This document shows positions 63-7,717 of a stretch of DNA of 64,000 nucleotides, piece after piece (within the stretch, counting starts at the first letter, position 1; each line of letters opens with the position of its first letter). Position numbers and translations under genes: made by a program. The notes below the pieces were generated by a model. That model saw only the letters and a list, made by a program, of their open reading frames with translations. It was not told the origin of the DNA and ran no database searches. The stretch covers positions 1 to 64,000 of the forward strand of contig NZ_GL883719.1 of the NCBI RefSeq assembly GCF_000205025.1, written 5' to 3'. The stretch comes from Parasutterella excrementihominis YIT 11859. Its GTDB lineage: Bacteria > Pseudomonadota > Gammaproteobacteria > Burkholderiales > Burkholderiaceae_F.

Positions 63-140
<78 letters not shown>

Positions 141-170: not shown

Positions 171-596
171 TTAATTGTGCAAAAACTCTTCGATTTTTTC
201 TAAGTTATAGACGACAGAATCAAATTCTTCCCAATCGATTTCCGCCTGAGAAAAGGTCCCGGCTCCTTCAAAACCAGGGAAAGAAGTCTCCGGAAGCTGT
301 GGTGCAGATGCACCGGCTTTTGCTTCTCTGTCTTCTTTATTCAAAATTTCTCTTGCCGCATCAATACGATAGCCGTCTCCGTAGAGAAGCTCCCGTATTC
401 TGCGGGCAATCAAAATATCTTTTGCGCGGTAAGCACGCTGGCTTCCGCGCTTCATCGGTCTGAGCTGAGAAAATTCTTTTTCCCAAAACCTCAGGACATA
501 ATCTTTTACACCACAAAGTGCGCTCGCTTCCCGAATCGGAAAATACCTTTTCGAAGGTATCGGCGGCAATTCAGGAAGCTTTTTCTTTCTAGGCAT
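171..596 (-). CDS. MerR-family transcriptional regulator downstream of ihfA
   Basis: A 141-residue protein with a single N-terminal MerR-type winged helix-turn-helix at about residues 17-90. The segment [20 protein letters not shown] is the typical DNA-recognition start, followed by a wing with [17 protein letters not shown]. The C-terminal half is acidic and low in complexity and has no visible metal- or drug-binding domain, as is usual for the short MerR protein encoded after ihfA in many proteobacteria. It begins 6 bp after ihfA, so the two are probably co-transcribed. Family knowledge suggests a DNA-binding regulator; its targets and ligand cannot be read from the sequence. Confidence 0.85.
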
Positions 597-602
597 CCGC
601 TA

Positions 603-959
603 TCAAGCCTTTTGGCGGAGGTTGTAATCGATAAAGTCCGTCAGTTTCTTGGAAGGATGGAAGTAGACATCCAAACGGGTCGGAGCGTCAAACCATTCCT
701 TGGCCTCCGGATCAAAGAACATTTTATAGGCTCTTCCGCAGATTTCAAACCTGCCGAGTGTCGTGAGTTTTACTTCCTCTCCGGTTGCCAAAACATCCGA
801 AATGGTCTGGAAAAACTGAGTCACAAAAACTCGAGACATCTCGCGGCTGAAGCCGAGCTCTTCGAAGAGAACTTCTTCGAGCGTGCTGCGGTTCATTGTG
901 TTCTTATCCCCAAGCAACTCTTTGACGAGTTCAAAATTGTCAGGACCAATGTTTGCCAT
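603..959 (-). CDS. ihfA: Integration host factor alpha subunit, divergent
   Basis: A 118-residue HU/IHF-fold protein. By position (directly after pheT) and by its N-terminal helices (MNRSTLEEVLFEELGFSRE) it is the IHF alpha subunit, which with IHF beta bends DNA sharply for recombination, replication and promoter architecture. ATG at 959 follows AAGGGGA with good spacing and lies 9 bp after the pheT stop; Met22 would give the usual family length of about 97. The N-terminal 21 residues are therefore extra. The DNA-intercalating arm is atypical: the conserved RxGRNPKTGE stretch is replaced by FFDPEAKEWF, keeping the proline but losing the basic residues and the glycine. It may have altered DNA affinity or partner choice. 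Confidence 0.85.
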   Translation of the reverse strand: MANIGPDNFELVKELLGDKNTMNRSTLEEVLFEELGFSREMSRVFVTQFFQTISDVLATGEEVKLTTLGRFEICGRAYKMFFDPEAKEWFDAPTRLDVYFHPSKKLTDFIDYNLRQKA

Positions 960-968
960 GACTTCCCC

Positions 969-3380
969 TTAATCTCTCAAGACTGCACCCTCTTTAGCGA
1001 GGGCTTCTACCACAGCGGCGACGGCCTCATCAGCCTCTTCTTCAGAAAGCTGAGCATCCGGGCGCTGGAGCAACATGTTAAATGCAAGGCTCTTCTTCCC
1101 TACATTAGCACCATCCTGGGGTTTGTAAAGATCAAAGAGTTTGAAAGATGACAAACTCAGCAGGCGCGGATCCTTCTTCGCAGCCTTGCGAACGGCATCC
1201 ATCAGCTTCTGAACCGGAACTGCATCGTCAATGAATACGGCGATGTCGCGGGACATCGGCTGGAACTTAGACAGACTGCGGTTGACCGGTACTCCGATAT
1301 CAAGAAGCGCTTCTTCCTTGAGTTCAAAGACTATCGGAGAATGCGGCAGCTCATACTTATGAGCCAATTCCGGGTGAAGCTCACCGATAAATCCGATTTC
1401 TTCGCCGTCGAGATAAGCCGTGGCGGCGCGTCCCGGATGGAGTGCAGGATGGTTAGATTTTTCGAAGCGGAGATTGCGGCCCGGAAGCAACATCTCTACT
1501 GCGCCCTTTAAGTCGAAGAAGTCAAAGTTTCTGGCCTTCTCTCCCCACTGAGCGGGACGGGCAAAACCGTATACCAGTGCGGCAAGATGCAGCGGCTGAT
1601 ACACGCCTTCAACGGCGGAGTCGGAACCCTTAACGGAAGGATCACGCCTGAAGATGCGGCCCAATTCAAACAAAGCGGCTCTATCAGCCTTGCGATTGAG
1701 GTTGTACTTAAGGCGATCCACCAAACCTGAGATCAGCTGTGTTCTCATCACAGCCATTTGAGAAGCGATCGGATTCAAAACCTTGATCGGATCTTTCACT
1801 TCGGCAAAGTCTGCTTCAGCATCTTCACTGATGAAGGAATAGTTAATCAGTTCCTGGAAACCTAAACCAGCCATCTTCTTGCGAAGTTCATGACGGTCGA
1901 GTTTTGCTTCAGAACGTTCGAGCATAGCTACGCGAGCCAGCGGCGGAATTTCCGTCAGGTTCTGATAACCGTAAAGACGAGCAACTTCTTCGATCAGGTC
2001 TTCTTCAATCTCAATGTCAAAGCGATAGCTCGGCGCATCTACAACGAAGGTGTCTCCTTCTTTCTTGAAAGAGAAGCCTAAGCGAGTAAAGCACTCGGCC
2101 ATTTTGTCGTCGGAGATATCAGCACCGATGACTTTTCTGCAGCGGTCAGCTCTCATGCGAACGGGTTCGCGAACGGGCAGCTCTTCGATTTCGTCGACAA
2201 CCGGACCGACCTTGGTTTCAGAGGTACCGCAGATCTCGAGGATCAGGCGAGTGATGTATTCCATGTGATCCACATTGGACTGGAAATCCACACCGCGCTC
2301 AAAACGATAGGCAGCATCGGTCGAGAAGTTTAATTTTCTGCAGCGGCCCTGAATGGCTTTGGGCCACCAAAAGGCAGCTTCAATAAAGACATTCTTCGTC
2401 TCCAGCGAGACGGCGGCATGATCGCCGCCCATGATGCCGGCGATGGCTTCAATGCCGTTGTTGTCGCTGATCACTCCGAAATACGGATCGATATCGACGG
2501 TCTGACCGTTGAGCAGTTCGCCCTTCTCGCCTTCTTTACCCCAGCGAACAGTCAGCGGACCGTCAAGCTTATCGAGGTCAAAAATATGAGTCGGACGGCC
2601 GAGCTCGAGCATGACGTAATTGGAAATGTCCACCAACGCAGAAATCGAACGTTGTCCAGAACGTTCCAGGCGGTCCTTCATCCACTGAGGCGTCGGAGCC
2701 TTCGCATTTACGCCGCAGACCACACGGCCGGCGAACCGTCCGCAAAGATCCGGGGCCTCATTGCGTACTTCGTGAACGCGGTCGCAGGTGGCCGGAACCG
2801 GAGAGAAATCCGGGAGGGAAAGCTCGGCACCGGTCAGCGCTCTCAAATCGCGGCCGACACCGATCACGCTTAAAGCGTCACCGCGGTTCGGAGTTGCTTT
2901 GACTTCAATCTTCTTGTCATCTAGACGTTCGTAGACGCGAATGTCTTCTCCGACAGGCGCATCTTCCGGAAGAATCCACAAACCGGAATGATCTTCGCTG
3001 ATACCTAACTCTCGGCTGGAGCAGAGCATACCGTTGCTCTCGACACCGCGGAGTTTGGCTTTTTTAATCTTGAAATCGCCGGGGAGAACGGCGCCGATGG
3101 TGGCGCAGGGTACCTTGACGCCAGCCTTAACGTTCGGAGCTCCGCAGACGATCTGTACGGGCTCGCCCTTGCCGATATCGACTGTACAAACATGCAGTTT
3201 GTCTGCATTCGGATGCTGATCACAGGTCAGTACCTGAGCAACGATCACACCGGTGAAAGCCGGCGCAATCGGTTCGGCGCCTTCAACTTCCAGACCGCCC
3301 ATGGTCAGGGTTTCGCACAGCTCATCGCTGCTGAGGGCAGGATTGATGTAATGGCGCAGCCACTCTTCTGAAAATAACAT
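969..3380 (-). CDS. pheT: Phenylalanine--tRNA ligase beta subunit
   Basis: An 803-residue protein, normal for bacterial PheT. It forms the (alpha-beta)2 phenylalanyl-tRNA synthetase and carries the editing site that hydrolyses Tyr-tRNA(Phe). Visible domains are the N-terminal EMAP/tRNA-binding OB fold at about 40-150 (VCGAPNVKAG, GVESNGMLCS), the B3/B4 editing region at about 210-370 (LVDISNYVMLELGRPTHIFD), B5 at about 400-475, and a C-terminal anticodon-binding FDX-ACB domain (QPMSRDIAVFIDD onward). The ATG at 3380 follows AAAGGAT with good spacing. It lies 17 bp after pheS and ends 9 bp before ihfA, so all three look co-transcribed. Confidence 0.98.
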   Translation of the reverse strand: MLFSEEWLRHYINPALSSDELCETLTMGGLEVEGAEPIAPAFTGVIVAQVLTCDQHPNADKLHVCTVDIGKGEPVQIVCGAPNVKAGVKVPCATIGAVLPGDFKIKKAKLRGVESNGMLCSSRELGISEDHSGLWILPEDAPVGEDIRVYERLDDKKIEVKATPNRGDALSVIGVGRDLRALTGAELSLPDFSPVPATCDRVHEVRNEAPDLCGRFAGRVVCGVNAKAPTPQWMKDRLERSGQRSISALVDISNYVMLELGRPTHIFDLDKLDGPLTVRWGKEGEKGELLNGQTVDIDPYFGVISDNNGIEAIAGIMGGDHAAVSLETKNVFIEAAFWWPKAIQGRCRKLNFSTDAAYRFERGVDFQSNVDHMEYITRLILEICGTSETKVGPVVDEIEELPVREPVRMRADRCRKVIGADISDDKMAECFTRLGFSFKKEGDTFVVDAPSYRFDIEIEEDLIEEVARLYGYQNLTEIPPLARVAMLERSEAKLDRHELRKKMAGLGFQELINYSFISEDAEADFAEVKDPIKVLNPIASQMAVMRTQLISGLVDRLKYNLNRKADRAALFELGRIFRRDPSVKGSDSAVEGVYQPLHLAALVYGFARPAQWGEKARNFDFFDLKGAVEMLLPGRNLRFEKSNHPALHPGRAATAYLDGEEIGFIGELHPELAHKYELPHSPIVFELKEEALLDIGVPVNRSLSKFQPMSRDIAVFIDDAVPVQKLMDAVRKAAKKDPRLLSLSSFKLFDLYKPQDGANVGKKSLAFNMLLQRPDAQLSEEEADEAVAAVVEALAKEGAVLRD

Positions 3381-3397: not shown

Positions 3398-4414
3398 TTA
3401 GTTGAACTGTTTGAGGAAGCGGAGGTCGCCTTCGAAGAAAAGACGAAGGTCATCGATTCCGTAGCGGAGCATGGTCAGTCTTTCAAGACCGGAACCGAAA
3501 GCAAAACCGATGTAGCGTTCCGGATCTAAACCGAAGTTTCTGACGACATTCGGATGGACCTCGCCAGAGCCGCTGATTTCCAGCCATTTTCCTTTTCTAG
3601 GACCGCTGGTGAACATCATGTCCACTTCAGCGCTCGGCTCGGTGAACGGGAAGTAGCTCGGACGGAAGCGAACGATGAGGTCGTCCGTTTCAAAGAAGCG
3701 CTTCAGGAAGTCAACATAGACGCCCTTCAAGTCGGCAAAACTGATGTTTTCGTCGATCCAAAGACCTTCGACCTGGTGGAACATCGGGGAATGCGTTGCA
3801 TCGGAGTCCACGCGATAGGTCCTTCCCGGAGCGATGACCTTGATAGGCGGCTTGTGCTGACGGGCATAACGAACCTGCATCGGAGAGGTATGCGGTCTTA
3901 AAGGAAGCTGTTTGCCGGTTTCATCCTTCATGTCCACGTAGAACGTGTCCTGCATAGAGCGGGCCGGATGATTAGGCGGATTATTTAAAGCTGTAAAGGT
4001 GTACCAGTCGTTTTCAACTTCAGGGCCGTCGGCAACATCAAAGCCAATCGTTTTAAAGATTTCTTCGACGCGCATCCAGGTTCTCATGACCGGATGAATA
4101 CCGCCGTAGCCGAACGTACGTCCGGGGAGCGTGATATCGACCGATTCAGAGGTCAATTTACGGTTGAGTTCTTCGCGGGCCAAAGCTTCACGTCGATTAT
4201 TGAGCAGCGTTTCGACTTCACGTTTAGCTTTATTGATTTCGGCTCCGCGAGCGCGTTTTTCTTCGATGGACAGTTTTGCCATCCCCTTCAGCAATGCTGT
4301 CAAAGAACCGTTTTTGCCGAGATAGACCGCTTTCGCGTCTTCAAGGGCTGCCGGCGTTGCGGCCTGATCAAAAGCCTCTTTGGCAGATTGAATGATTAGA
4401 CTGAGATCTTCCAT
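3398..4414 (-). CDS. pheS: Phenylalanine--tRNA ligase alpha subunit
   Basis: A 338-residue catalytic alpha subunit of phenylalanyl-tRNA synthetase, which charges tRNA(Phe) with phenylalanine. The N-terminal about 90 residues are the coiled-coil tRNA-binding arm. The class II core shows motif 2 around [11 protein letters not shown] and motif 3 in the C-terminal [15 protein letters not shown]. Length is typical. The ATG at 4414 has no strong Shine-Dalgarno sequence. A strong terminator hairpin stands between rplT and this gene, so pheST expression probably depends on readthrough, attenuation or its own promoter. No phenylalanine-rich leader peptide like enterobacterial pheM was found. Confidence 0.98.
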
Positions 4415-4442: not shown

Positions 4443-4480
4443 GAAAAAACAAAAGCCTGGCATATCAAACCAGGCTTTTG
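4443..4480 (-). terminator. Terminator or attenuator hairpin between rplT and pheS
   Basis: A perfect 11-bp stem (CAAAAGCCTGG at 4450-4460 against CCAGGCTTTTG at 4470-4480 on the plus strand) with a 9-nt loop is followed on the minus strand by six U residues (A tract 4444-4449). A second imperfect hairpin (GTTTCAAG with CTTTGAAAC, about 4494-4523) precedes it in the transcript. Position matches the pheS attenuator of enterobacteria, but no Phe-codon leader ORF is visible. Confidence 0.8.
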
Positions 4481-4541
4481 TAGGTATTTTAGCAGTTTCA
4501 AAGCACTGAAAGTGGCTTGAAACCTGCGTGTCTGAAGCTAA

Positions 4542-4898
4542 TTAAGCAAGGCTAGCCTTAGCTTTAGCAACAACAGCGGCGAAACCTTCTTTATCGAAGA
4601 TAGCCATGTTGGACAGAACTTTACGGTCGAGTTCAATACCGGCTTTCTTGAGGCCGTTCATGAACTGGCTGTAGTTCATGCCGTTGGCACGAGCACCGGC
4701 GTTGATACGAGCAATCCACAGACGGCGGAATACGCGTTTCTTGTTGCGGCGATCGCGGTATGCGTACTGACCGGCACGCATAACTGCCTGCTTAGCGACA
4801 CGATAAACATTATTGCGGCGAAGGGTAAAGCCCTTGGACAGCGCAAATACTTTCTTATGACGGGCACGAGCCGTTACACCACGTTTTACTCGGGGCAT
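4542..4898 (-). CDS. rplT: 50S ribosomal protein L20
   Basis: A 118-residue basic protein matching L20 along its full length ([18 protein letters not shown] start, then [23 protein letters not shown], typical of its long N-terminal helix). L20 binds 23S rRNA early in 50S assembly and in other bacteria represses translation of rpmI-rplT by binding the operon mRNA. A GAGGAG ribosome-binding site lies upstream of ATG 4898. It follows rpmI by 18 bp in the conserved infC-rpmI-rplT order. Confidence 0.99.
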
Positions 4899-5791: not shown

Positions 5792-7717
5792 TTATTCAAT
5801 TTCGTTCACGTTGCGGCGCGTTGCCACATCTTCCTGAACGAGCTTAATAAAGTCTTCCACGCTCATGGCGCCAAGATCCTTGCCGCCGCGAACTCGAACC
5901 GCGACTTTACCTTCTGCCTTTTCCTTAGCTCCGACAACGAGGATGTAAGGAAGCTTCTGCAGGCTAAGTTCGCGAATCTTATATGTAATTTTGCCGTTTC
6001 GCAAATCTGCTTCGGCACGAAGACCCGCCTTTTTGAGCATAGAAACCACTTCTTTGGCGTAATCGGCCTGGTCGTCGGTAATGTTGGCAACGGCGACCTG
6101 AACCGGAGCAAGCCACGGAGGAAGCTGACCGGCATAGTGTTCAAGCAGCATGCCGATGAAGCGTTCCAAGCTGCCGACGATTGCGCGGTGGAGCATCACC
6201 GGAGTGGCTCTGCCGTTGCTTTCGGTCACATATTCGGCACCGAGGCGAGCCGGCATCTGGAAGTCGACCTGGATCGTACCGCACTGCCAACCGCGGCCTA
6301 AGGAGTCGCGCAGATGGTATTCAATCTTCGGACCGTAGAAAGCGCCTTCACCCGGAAGAATATCGTACTTGATGCCCGAAGCATCCAATGCATCCATCAG
6401 AGCTTTTTCTGCTTTATCCCAAGTTGCGTCGTCACCGATACGTTTTTCCGGACGTGTTGCAATCTTGTAGGAAATATCGGTAAAGCCGTAGTCGGCGTAA
6501 ACCTTCTGAACGAGCTTGGTGTAAGCGGTGCATTCGGAAAGAATCTGATCTTCTGTACAGAAGATGTGCCCATCGTCCTGAGTGAAACCGCGGACGCGCA
6601 TCAAGCCGTGCAGAGAGCCGGACGGTTCATTTCTGTGGCAGGCACCGAATTCACCGTAGCGGATCGGCAGATCGCGGTAGGAGCGAACGGCGCTGTTGAA
6701 AATTTGAATGTGGCCCGGGCAGTTCATCGGTTTCAGAGCGTAGTAACGGTTTTCCGACTCTGTCGTGAACATGTTTTCTTTGTACTTAGACCAGTGACCG
6801 GATTTTTCCCAGAGAGAACGGTCTAACAGCTGAGGAGCCTTAACCTCCTGATAGTCGTTGTCCTGGTAAACACGGCGCATGTACTGTTCAACCTGCTGCC
6901 AGAGTGCCCAGCCACGAGCGTGCCAGAAGATAAGACCCGGAGCTTCTTCCTGGAAATGGAAGAGATCGAGTTCCTTGCCGAGGCGGCGATGATCGCGCTT
7001 TTCTGCTTCTTCCAGCATATGGAGGTAAGCAGCCATATCGTCTTTCTTGGCCCAGGCGGTACCGTAAATTCTCTGCAGCATTTCATTCTTGCTGTCGCCT
7101 CTCCAGTAGGCACCGGCAAGCTTCATTAGCTTGTGAACTTTCAGACGGCCTGTGCTCGGGACGTGAGGTCCGCGGCAAAGGTCGACGTAGTCGCCCTGAC
7201 GGTACAGAGAAATAGTTTCACCTGCGGGAATAGAACCGATGATTTCGGCCTTGTAGTGTTCGCCGATGGAGTTGAAGTATTTGACGGCCTCGTCGCGGTC
7301 CATCTCTTCACGAACGATCGGAAGATCGCGTTTGACGATCTCGTCCATCTTCTTTTCGATGAGCGGCAGATCTTCGTTGGTCAGATGTTTCGGCAGAGAG
7401 AAGTCATAGTAGAAACCGTTTTCAATCACCGGCCCGATCGTGATCTGGGCTTCCGGATACAGTTCCTTGACTGCCTGAGCCATCAAGTGAGAGGTCGAAT
7501 GACGAATGATCTCAAGGCCCTCAGGGTCTTTGTCAGTCACAATCGAAACCGTACTGTTTTCGGTAATCGGGTGAGACAGGTCCACGAGTTTGCCGTTAAC
7601 TTTACCTGCCAAAGCAGCGCGAGCCAGGCCGGCGCCGATAGAGGCTGCAACGTCACCTACGGTAACCGGTGAATCGAATTCACGTTTGGAGCCGTCGGGC
7701 AGAGTTACTTCGATCAT
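5792..7717 (-). CDS. thrS: Threonine--tRNA ligase
   Basis: A 641-residue ThrRS of normal length. Domains in order: TGS at 1-62, the N2 editing domain with the zinc/editing motif [16 protein letters not shown] near residue 73 and the second-half motif around residue 180, the class II catalytic core with [31 protein letters not shown] and the motif 3 region [19 protein letters not shown], and a C-terminal anticodon-binding domain from about residue 535. GGAGA lies upstream of ATG 7717. First gene of the thrS-infC-rpmI-rplT-pheST-ihfA run. No obvious tRNA-like operator was identified in the 165-bp leader. Confidence 0.99.

Follow-up and report, generated by a model that had tools for sequence, protein, structure and literature searches.

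The gene directly behind pheT in Parasutterella excrementihominis YIT 11859 encodes a member of the HU/IHF family at the operon place of ihfA, and its product has exchanged nearly all conserved residues of the DNA-binding arm for a partly aromatic and acidic sequence. The window in which it lies is the stretch of 64,000 nucleotides at the start of contig NZ_GL883719.1. A second ihfA with a canonical arm is carried elsewhere in the same genome, and displacement of the operon copy by this second copy is well supported. We read the window gene as a retained, displaced ihfA whose product would fold and dimerize, would lack the DNA grip of IHF, and may modulate IHF or HU, with partner and function being what we infer; whether this functional reading is right appears to us an evenly balanced matter.

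The gene order of the locus, pheS-pheT-ORF-merR-tRNA-Pro (Table 1), is the classic setting of ihfA, and in the 49 other genomes used from outside the genus the match to IhfA adjoins the match to pheT. The window protein passes the superfamily cut-off of Pfam Bac_DNA_binding (PF00216; 51.3 bits over residues 22-109, cut-off 22.4), while its best NCBIfam model, ihfA NF001401, scores it at 54.9 bits, far below the cut-off of 111, and TIGR00987 at 49.7 bits, below its cut-off of 120.25. Between pheS and the gene at 4542-4898 stands a strong terminator-like hairpin of 13 pairs followed by a T run (4449-4481, minus strand), so that pheS, pheT, and the ORF may form a unit of their own. Promoter-like sites (2 found, 4.0 expected) and terminator-like sites (9 found, 7.2 expected) were not clearly more numerous than chance.

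Table 1. Features of the pheST locus and of the diverged ihfA paralog (window coordinates).
Feature	Position	Strand	Basis
tRNA-Pro (ggg)	63..139	minus	
MerR-family regulator; downstream in both genus mates too	171..596	minus	Pfam, locus comparison
Diverged pheT-linked IhfA paralog, 118 aa, ATG start	603..959	minus	ORF list, Pfam/NCBIfam matches, alignment
Altered DNA arm, residues 76-93 (E. coli IhfA 57-74)	681..734	minus	alignment
Codon of Pro84, retained arm-tip proline (E. coli Pro65)	708..710	minus	alignment
N-terminal extension, residues 1-21	897..959	minus	common in relatives examined
Shine-Dalgarno-like AAGGGG immediately 5' of the ATG; shares bases with the pheT stop codon	965..970	minus	by eye
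pheT, directly upstream of the paralog	969..3380	minus	named by eye from sequence and gene order
pheS	3398..4414	minus	named by eye from sequence and gene order

The altered arm was assessed in an alignment of 62 rows, consisting of the window protein, 53 other IhfA proteins, seven HU or IhfB proteins, and E. coli IhfA. Rows came from 51 of the 60 other genomes used (one pheT-linked copy each from 49 genomes, two rows from G001, and one from G002), those without rows being G005, G013, G020, G030, G032, G033, G053, G055, and G056, which had an identical core, no fetched locus, or no pheT match. Columns with at least 90% agreement among the 53 other IhfA rows were counted as conserved, giving 39 columns, 27 outside the arm and 12 within it. 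The initial annotation had described an IhfA homolog in which the RxGRNPKTGE arm is replaced and the proline kept, and the alignment bears this out: the window protein reads KMFFDPEAKE where the canonical arm reads RPGRNPKTGE, and retains only two of the 12 conserved arm residues (Pro84 and Glu88) against 18 of the 27 outside the arm (Fisher p = 0.006). The length of the arm is unchanged and the core of 95 columns is free of insertions and gaps. The same annotation drew attention to 21 residues ahead of the usual start; these are present (19 to 21, depending on the count) but are not unusual, as 32 of the 53 other IhfA rows have at least 18 residues before the E. coli IhfA start when each open frame is read from its first ATG (G035 not measured) and some others have none, so that the extension is common among relatives and no novelty.

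The loss of conserved residues is accompanied by a change of charge. The arm of the window protein has a net charge of -1, where the remaining 61 rows range from +2 to +6, and its core a net charge of -5, where they range from -1 to +8; the core pI of 4.80 is the lowest of the set, the next lowest being 5.88. Residues 1-95 of E. coli IhfA include 19 basic positions, of which eight are still basic in the window protein, among them Arg95 and Lys64, and 11 are not, with Phe and Glu standing at the equivalents of Arg63 and Lys66. The protein thus resembles E. coli IhfA/HimA (PDB 1IHF chain A) in family, core length, arm-tip proline, and, judged from the relatives examined, operon place behind pheT, with 27% core identity, and differs from it in the replacement of 10 of the 12 conserved arm residues, its acidity, and its score far under the ihfA cut-off. 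General divergence alone does not account for the arm, since the IhfA of G011 is equally diverged outside it (18 of 27) yet keeps nine of the 12 arm residues, which argues against arm loss as a mere by-product. In the genus of the same family to which G011 belongs (g10), the diverged pheT-linked IhfA proteins of G011 (L048), G025 (L045), and G035 (L046) keep 9, 11, and 10 of the 12, respectively; in that of G011 the arm reads RPARNPWTGE and the core pI is 6.35.

Fold prediction with AlphaFold2 from an alignment of 20 relatives (of 39 fetched) gave an HU/IHF-like model with a mean pLDDT of 75.8, in which strands 78-83 and 88-93 flank Pro84 and residues 1-19 fall below 50. The best PDB matches of this model were HU and IHF chains with Z of about 10 (1ihf_A: Z 10.2, rmsd 5.5, 96 aligned). 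The aligned relatives carry canonical arms, so the modeled arm may be inherited from those rows; prediction without an alignment yielded a poor model (46.6) that lacked an arm.

The genome (G000) contains seven HU/IHF genes. The initial annotation had set its reading against the presence of a second canonical ihfA, and such a gene was found on contig C23, with the arm ERPGRNPKSGE and a score of 113.7 bits to NF001401, above the cut-off, and 96.9 bits to TIGR00987, below that model's stricter cut-off of 120.25. The C23 product is related to IhfA and extended at its N-terminus, as is the window protein (28% core identity between the two); unlike the latter, the C23 product is basic and has the RPGRNPKSGE arm. 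A canonical IhfB is encoded on contig C4 (142.9 bits, cut-off 115). Four further proteins are HU-like, the HU naming resting on inspection by eye and on neighboring genes. One of the HU-like genes, L005 (G000:C89:196-462), has a partly altered arm, RVICNPHTGE instead of RxGRNPxTGE, and on the same contig a reverse transcriptase, by eye group II intron maturase-like (L001, 2376-3266), is encoded downstream of the HU gene that is linked to lon. The NF001401 cut-off was passed in 38 of 41 genomes searched and twice in none of them, a count that leaves room for second copies below the cut-off, such as the unlinked copy of G001 at 107.9 bits.

All three species of the genus that were examined carry an unlinked ihfA like that of C23, and these genes form one clade (support 99/97) with core identities of 75-87%. 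Around the copies on C23 and on C31 of G002, gene order is conserved over a stretch in which one gene is turned; by eye this stretch includes an ABC-transporter block, exporter and regulator genes of LysE-like and LysR-like type, respectively, and a PLP enzyme; the unlinked copy of G001 lies on a short contig and has only the LysE-like gene as a common neighbor. The grouping of this clade with copies of genus g16 is weak (92/75) and involves long branches, and the tree does not settle between duplication and transfer. With the canonical ihfA on C23, a normal IhfB, and the second copy in all three species, the IHF of the cell is probably normal and the canonical-arm copy has probably taken over, leaving the window gene as a displaced copy. 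This weakens the functional reading of the window gene given in the initial annotation. The effects on recombination and promoter control once proposed, which took its product to be the IHF alpha of the cell, lose their footing, and the proposed difference in DNA bending or partner specificity stands as a fair reading of the arm where it concerns altered DNA binding by the window protein, but not as a change to cellular IHF.

The pheT-linked copy has met different fates within the genus. In G001, whose pheT is 72.5% identical to that of the window, it is an open but eroded frame with 31% identity to the window protein; diverged at the same locus like the window gene, it differs in keeping seven of 12 arm residues (21 of 27 outside the arm) and an arm that is still basic. 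In G002 (pheT 77.3% identical), about 180 bp separate pheT from merR and ihfA is absent, and queries of this gap with the window protein and the G001 copy gave no meaningful remnant (best E 8.6); the gene is thus dispensable in the genus. In the tree the branch lengths are 10 for the window row, 4.46 for the linked copy of G001, and 0-0.56 for the unlinked copies, and the window row carries a long-branch warning and is not placed.

Conservation of the altered arm within the family, which had been suggested as a check, was not found. Among the relatives from the 67 family genomes whose arms were compared, none has the arm form of the window protein: the other arms of the 62-row set and those of new loci L142 and L143 are canonical or near-canonical, and that of the G001 pheT-linked copy is partly kept (the arms of G075, G076, and G078 were outside the comparison). 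Sixteen of these genomes match at E 1e-9 or better, with only the window itself above 47 bits. A search of 399 genomes of the order at E 1e-12 returned three matches, the window and L150 and L151 (52.6 and 52.0 bits), both with RPGRNPKTGE, and a search of 398 genomes of the phylum matched the window alone. The three samples overlap, and a lower-scoring, unrelated arm-less IhfA would be missed by them. Plasmids gave 22 matching records (10 listed, at 29-34% identity), phages 11 (10 listed, at 29-33%), and other genome contigs two loci, both with canonical arms. Neither the family, order, and phylum genomes nor the plasmid and phage matches listed contained a relative closer than ordinary IhfA. 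Viral contigs gave no match to the window protein as single query and 37 loci with an alignment query, in a scan that required a pattern on the arm itself and so could not detect other arm-less forms. Phage ancestry was also weighed and rejected: phrog_379 scores the window protein at 59.4 bits and four IhfA relatives tested at 75.8-85.7 bits, so that the match is no sign of phage descent. Several IhfA proteins per strain are already known from the Acidithiobacillia, with eight in one strain and identities of 27.8-94.1%; the portion of that account drawn on here describes basic proteins, partly linked to mobile elements, and mentions no arm loss (PMC10561277). In the open-access literature searched, judged by titles and abstract openings, no report of an arm-less IhfA was found; nor did that literature yield a paper on IHF in Parasutterella or Sutterellaceae.

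It may be asked whether the window gene is a gene at all, or a redundant copy drifting toward the loss seen in G002, its intact frame being due to luck or youth. The absence from G002 and the erosion in G001 are in keeping with such decay, and neutral simulations from three starting ihfA genes (substitutions only, no indels, down to 31% identity) left 231, 142, and 199 of 3000 runs stop-free, that is, 5-8%, which is common enough to make the intact frame by itself weak evidence. The same simulations speak against decay, since none of 9000 runs kept as many of the 27 core residues as the window protein, that is, 18 or more (means 7-8, maximum 15), as do the indel-free core of 95 columns, the plausible ribosome site, and gene-like codon usage. 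On a codon score built from pheT, pheS, and the gene at 5792-7717, the window ORF reaches 0.653, compared with 0.681 for infC, 0.528 for merR, and 0.32 and 0.37 for its shifted frames. An open frame of 179 aa that overlaps the gene in antisense (612-1151, plus strand), probably by chance, scores 0.546, above merR, so this score separates genes from other frames only partly. With one sequence of the arm-less form available, selection cannot be measured as dN/dS; the pattern of change, the simulation, and codon usage together point to a folded protein that has probably been under selection over most of its divergence, although recent decay after long constraint could explain part of the kept features. 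A simple pseudogene is therefore probably not what the window holds, and ongoing decay seems to us rather unlikely, if worth keeping in mind.

Bending by IHF is described, in the portions of two accounts used here, as the work of a pair of arms, each of which inserts the proline at its tip, together with DNA wrapped on a basic body (PMC9519438, PMC9820253). The window protein might on this basis still be a working IHF alpha of re-tuned specificity, whose aromatic, acidic arm inserts its proline, perhaps with a changed choice of site or partner. Pro84 at the tip of an arm of unchanged length and the retained basic positions are compatible with this, and the proline and the eight basic positions may permit a degree of DNA binding; the negative charge of the arm, the Phe and Glu at two formerly basic positions, the acidic core, and the canonical-arm copy in the same genome make such a working IHF alpha unlikely. 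An error of sequencing or assembly in the arm is barely credible: the genome is a draft of 93 contigs, but the canonical arm is absent from both other frames of the minus strand at the ORF, so that the arm is not explained by a frameshift gone unnoticed, codon usage is gene-like, and the changes are distributed over the whole protein. The reading we prefer, of a displaced ihfA retained in another role, starts from the gain by the genus of a second, canonical-armed ihfA, the operon copy being presumably the older by gene order. Freed from IHF duty, the operon copy would have lost the DNA-gripping chemistry of its arm and much of its basic surface and kept its core residues. Since the proline is present but the basic arm and the net basic body are gone, the product is expected to dimerize without an IHF-like grip on DNA, most likely by means of the HU/IHF body and with itself, IhfB, or an HU as partner; a dimer lacking one or both working arms would bind or bend DNA weakly and may thereby tune IHF or HU. 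That a DNA-blind, acidic IhfA paralog acts outright as an anti-IHF, pairing with IhfB or HU and removing the partner from service, is a long shot.

Within a single genus, the ihfA behind pheT is thus found eroded, absent, or re-shaped, with an unlinked copy retaining the IHF arm, which offers a small, self-contained example from nature of a gene being replaced and lost and cautions that operon place alone is insufficient for naming a gene ihfA. Should an anti-IHF role prove true, it would constitute a natural dominant-negative switch that was built out of a nucleoid protein and whose gene immediately follows pheT. If the arm-less form dimerizes, it would show a route from a nucleoid protein to a regulator of its own family.
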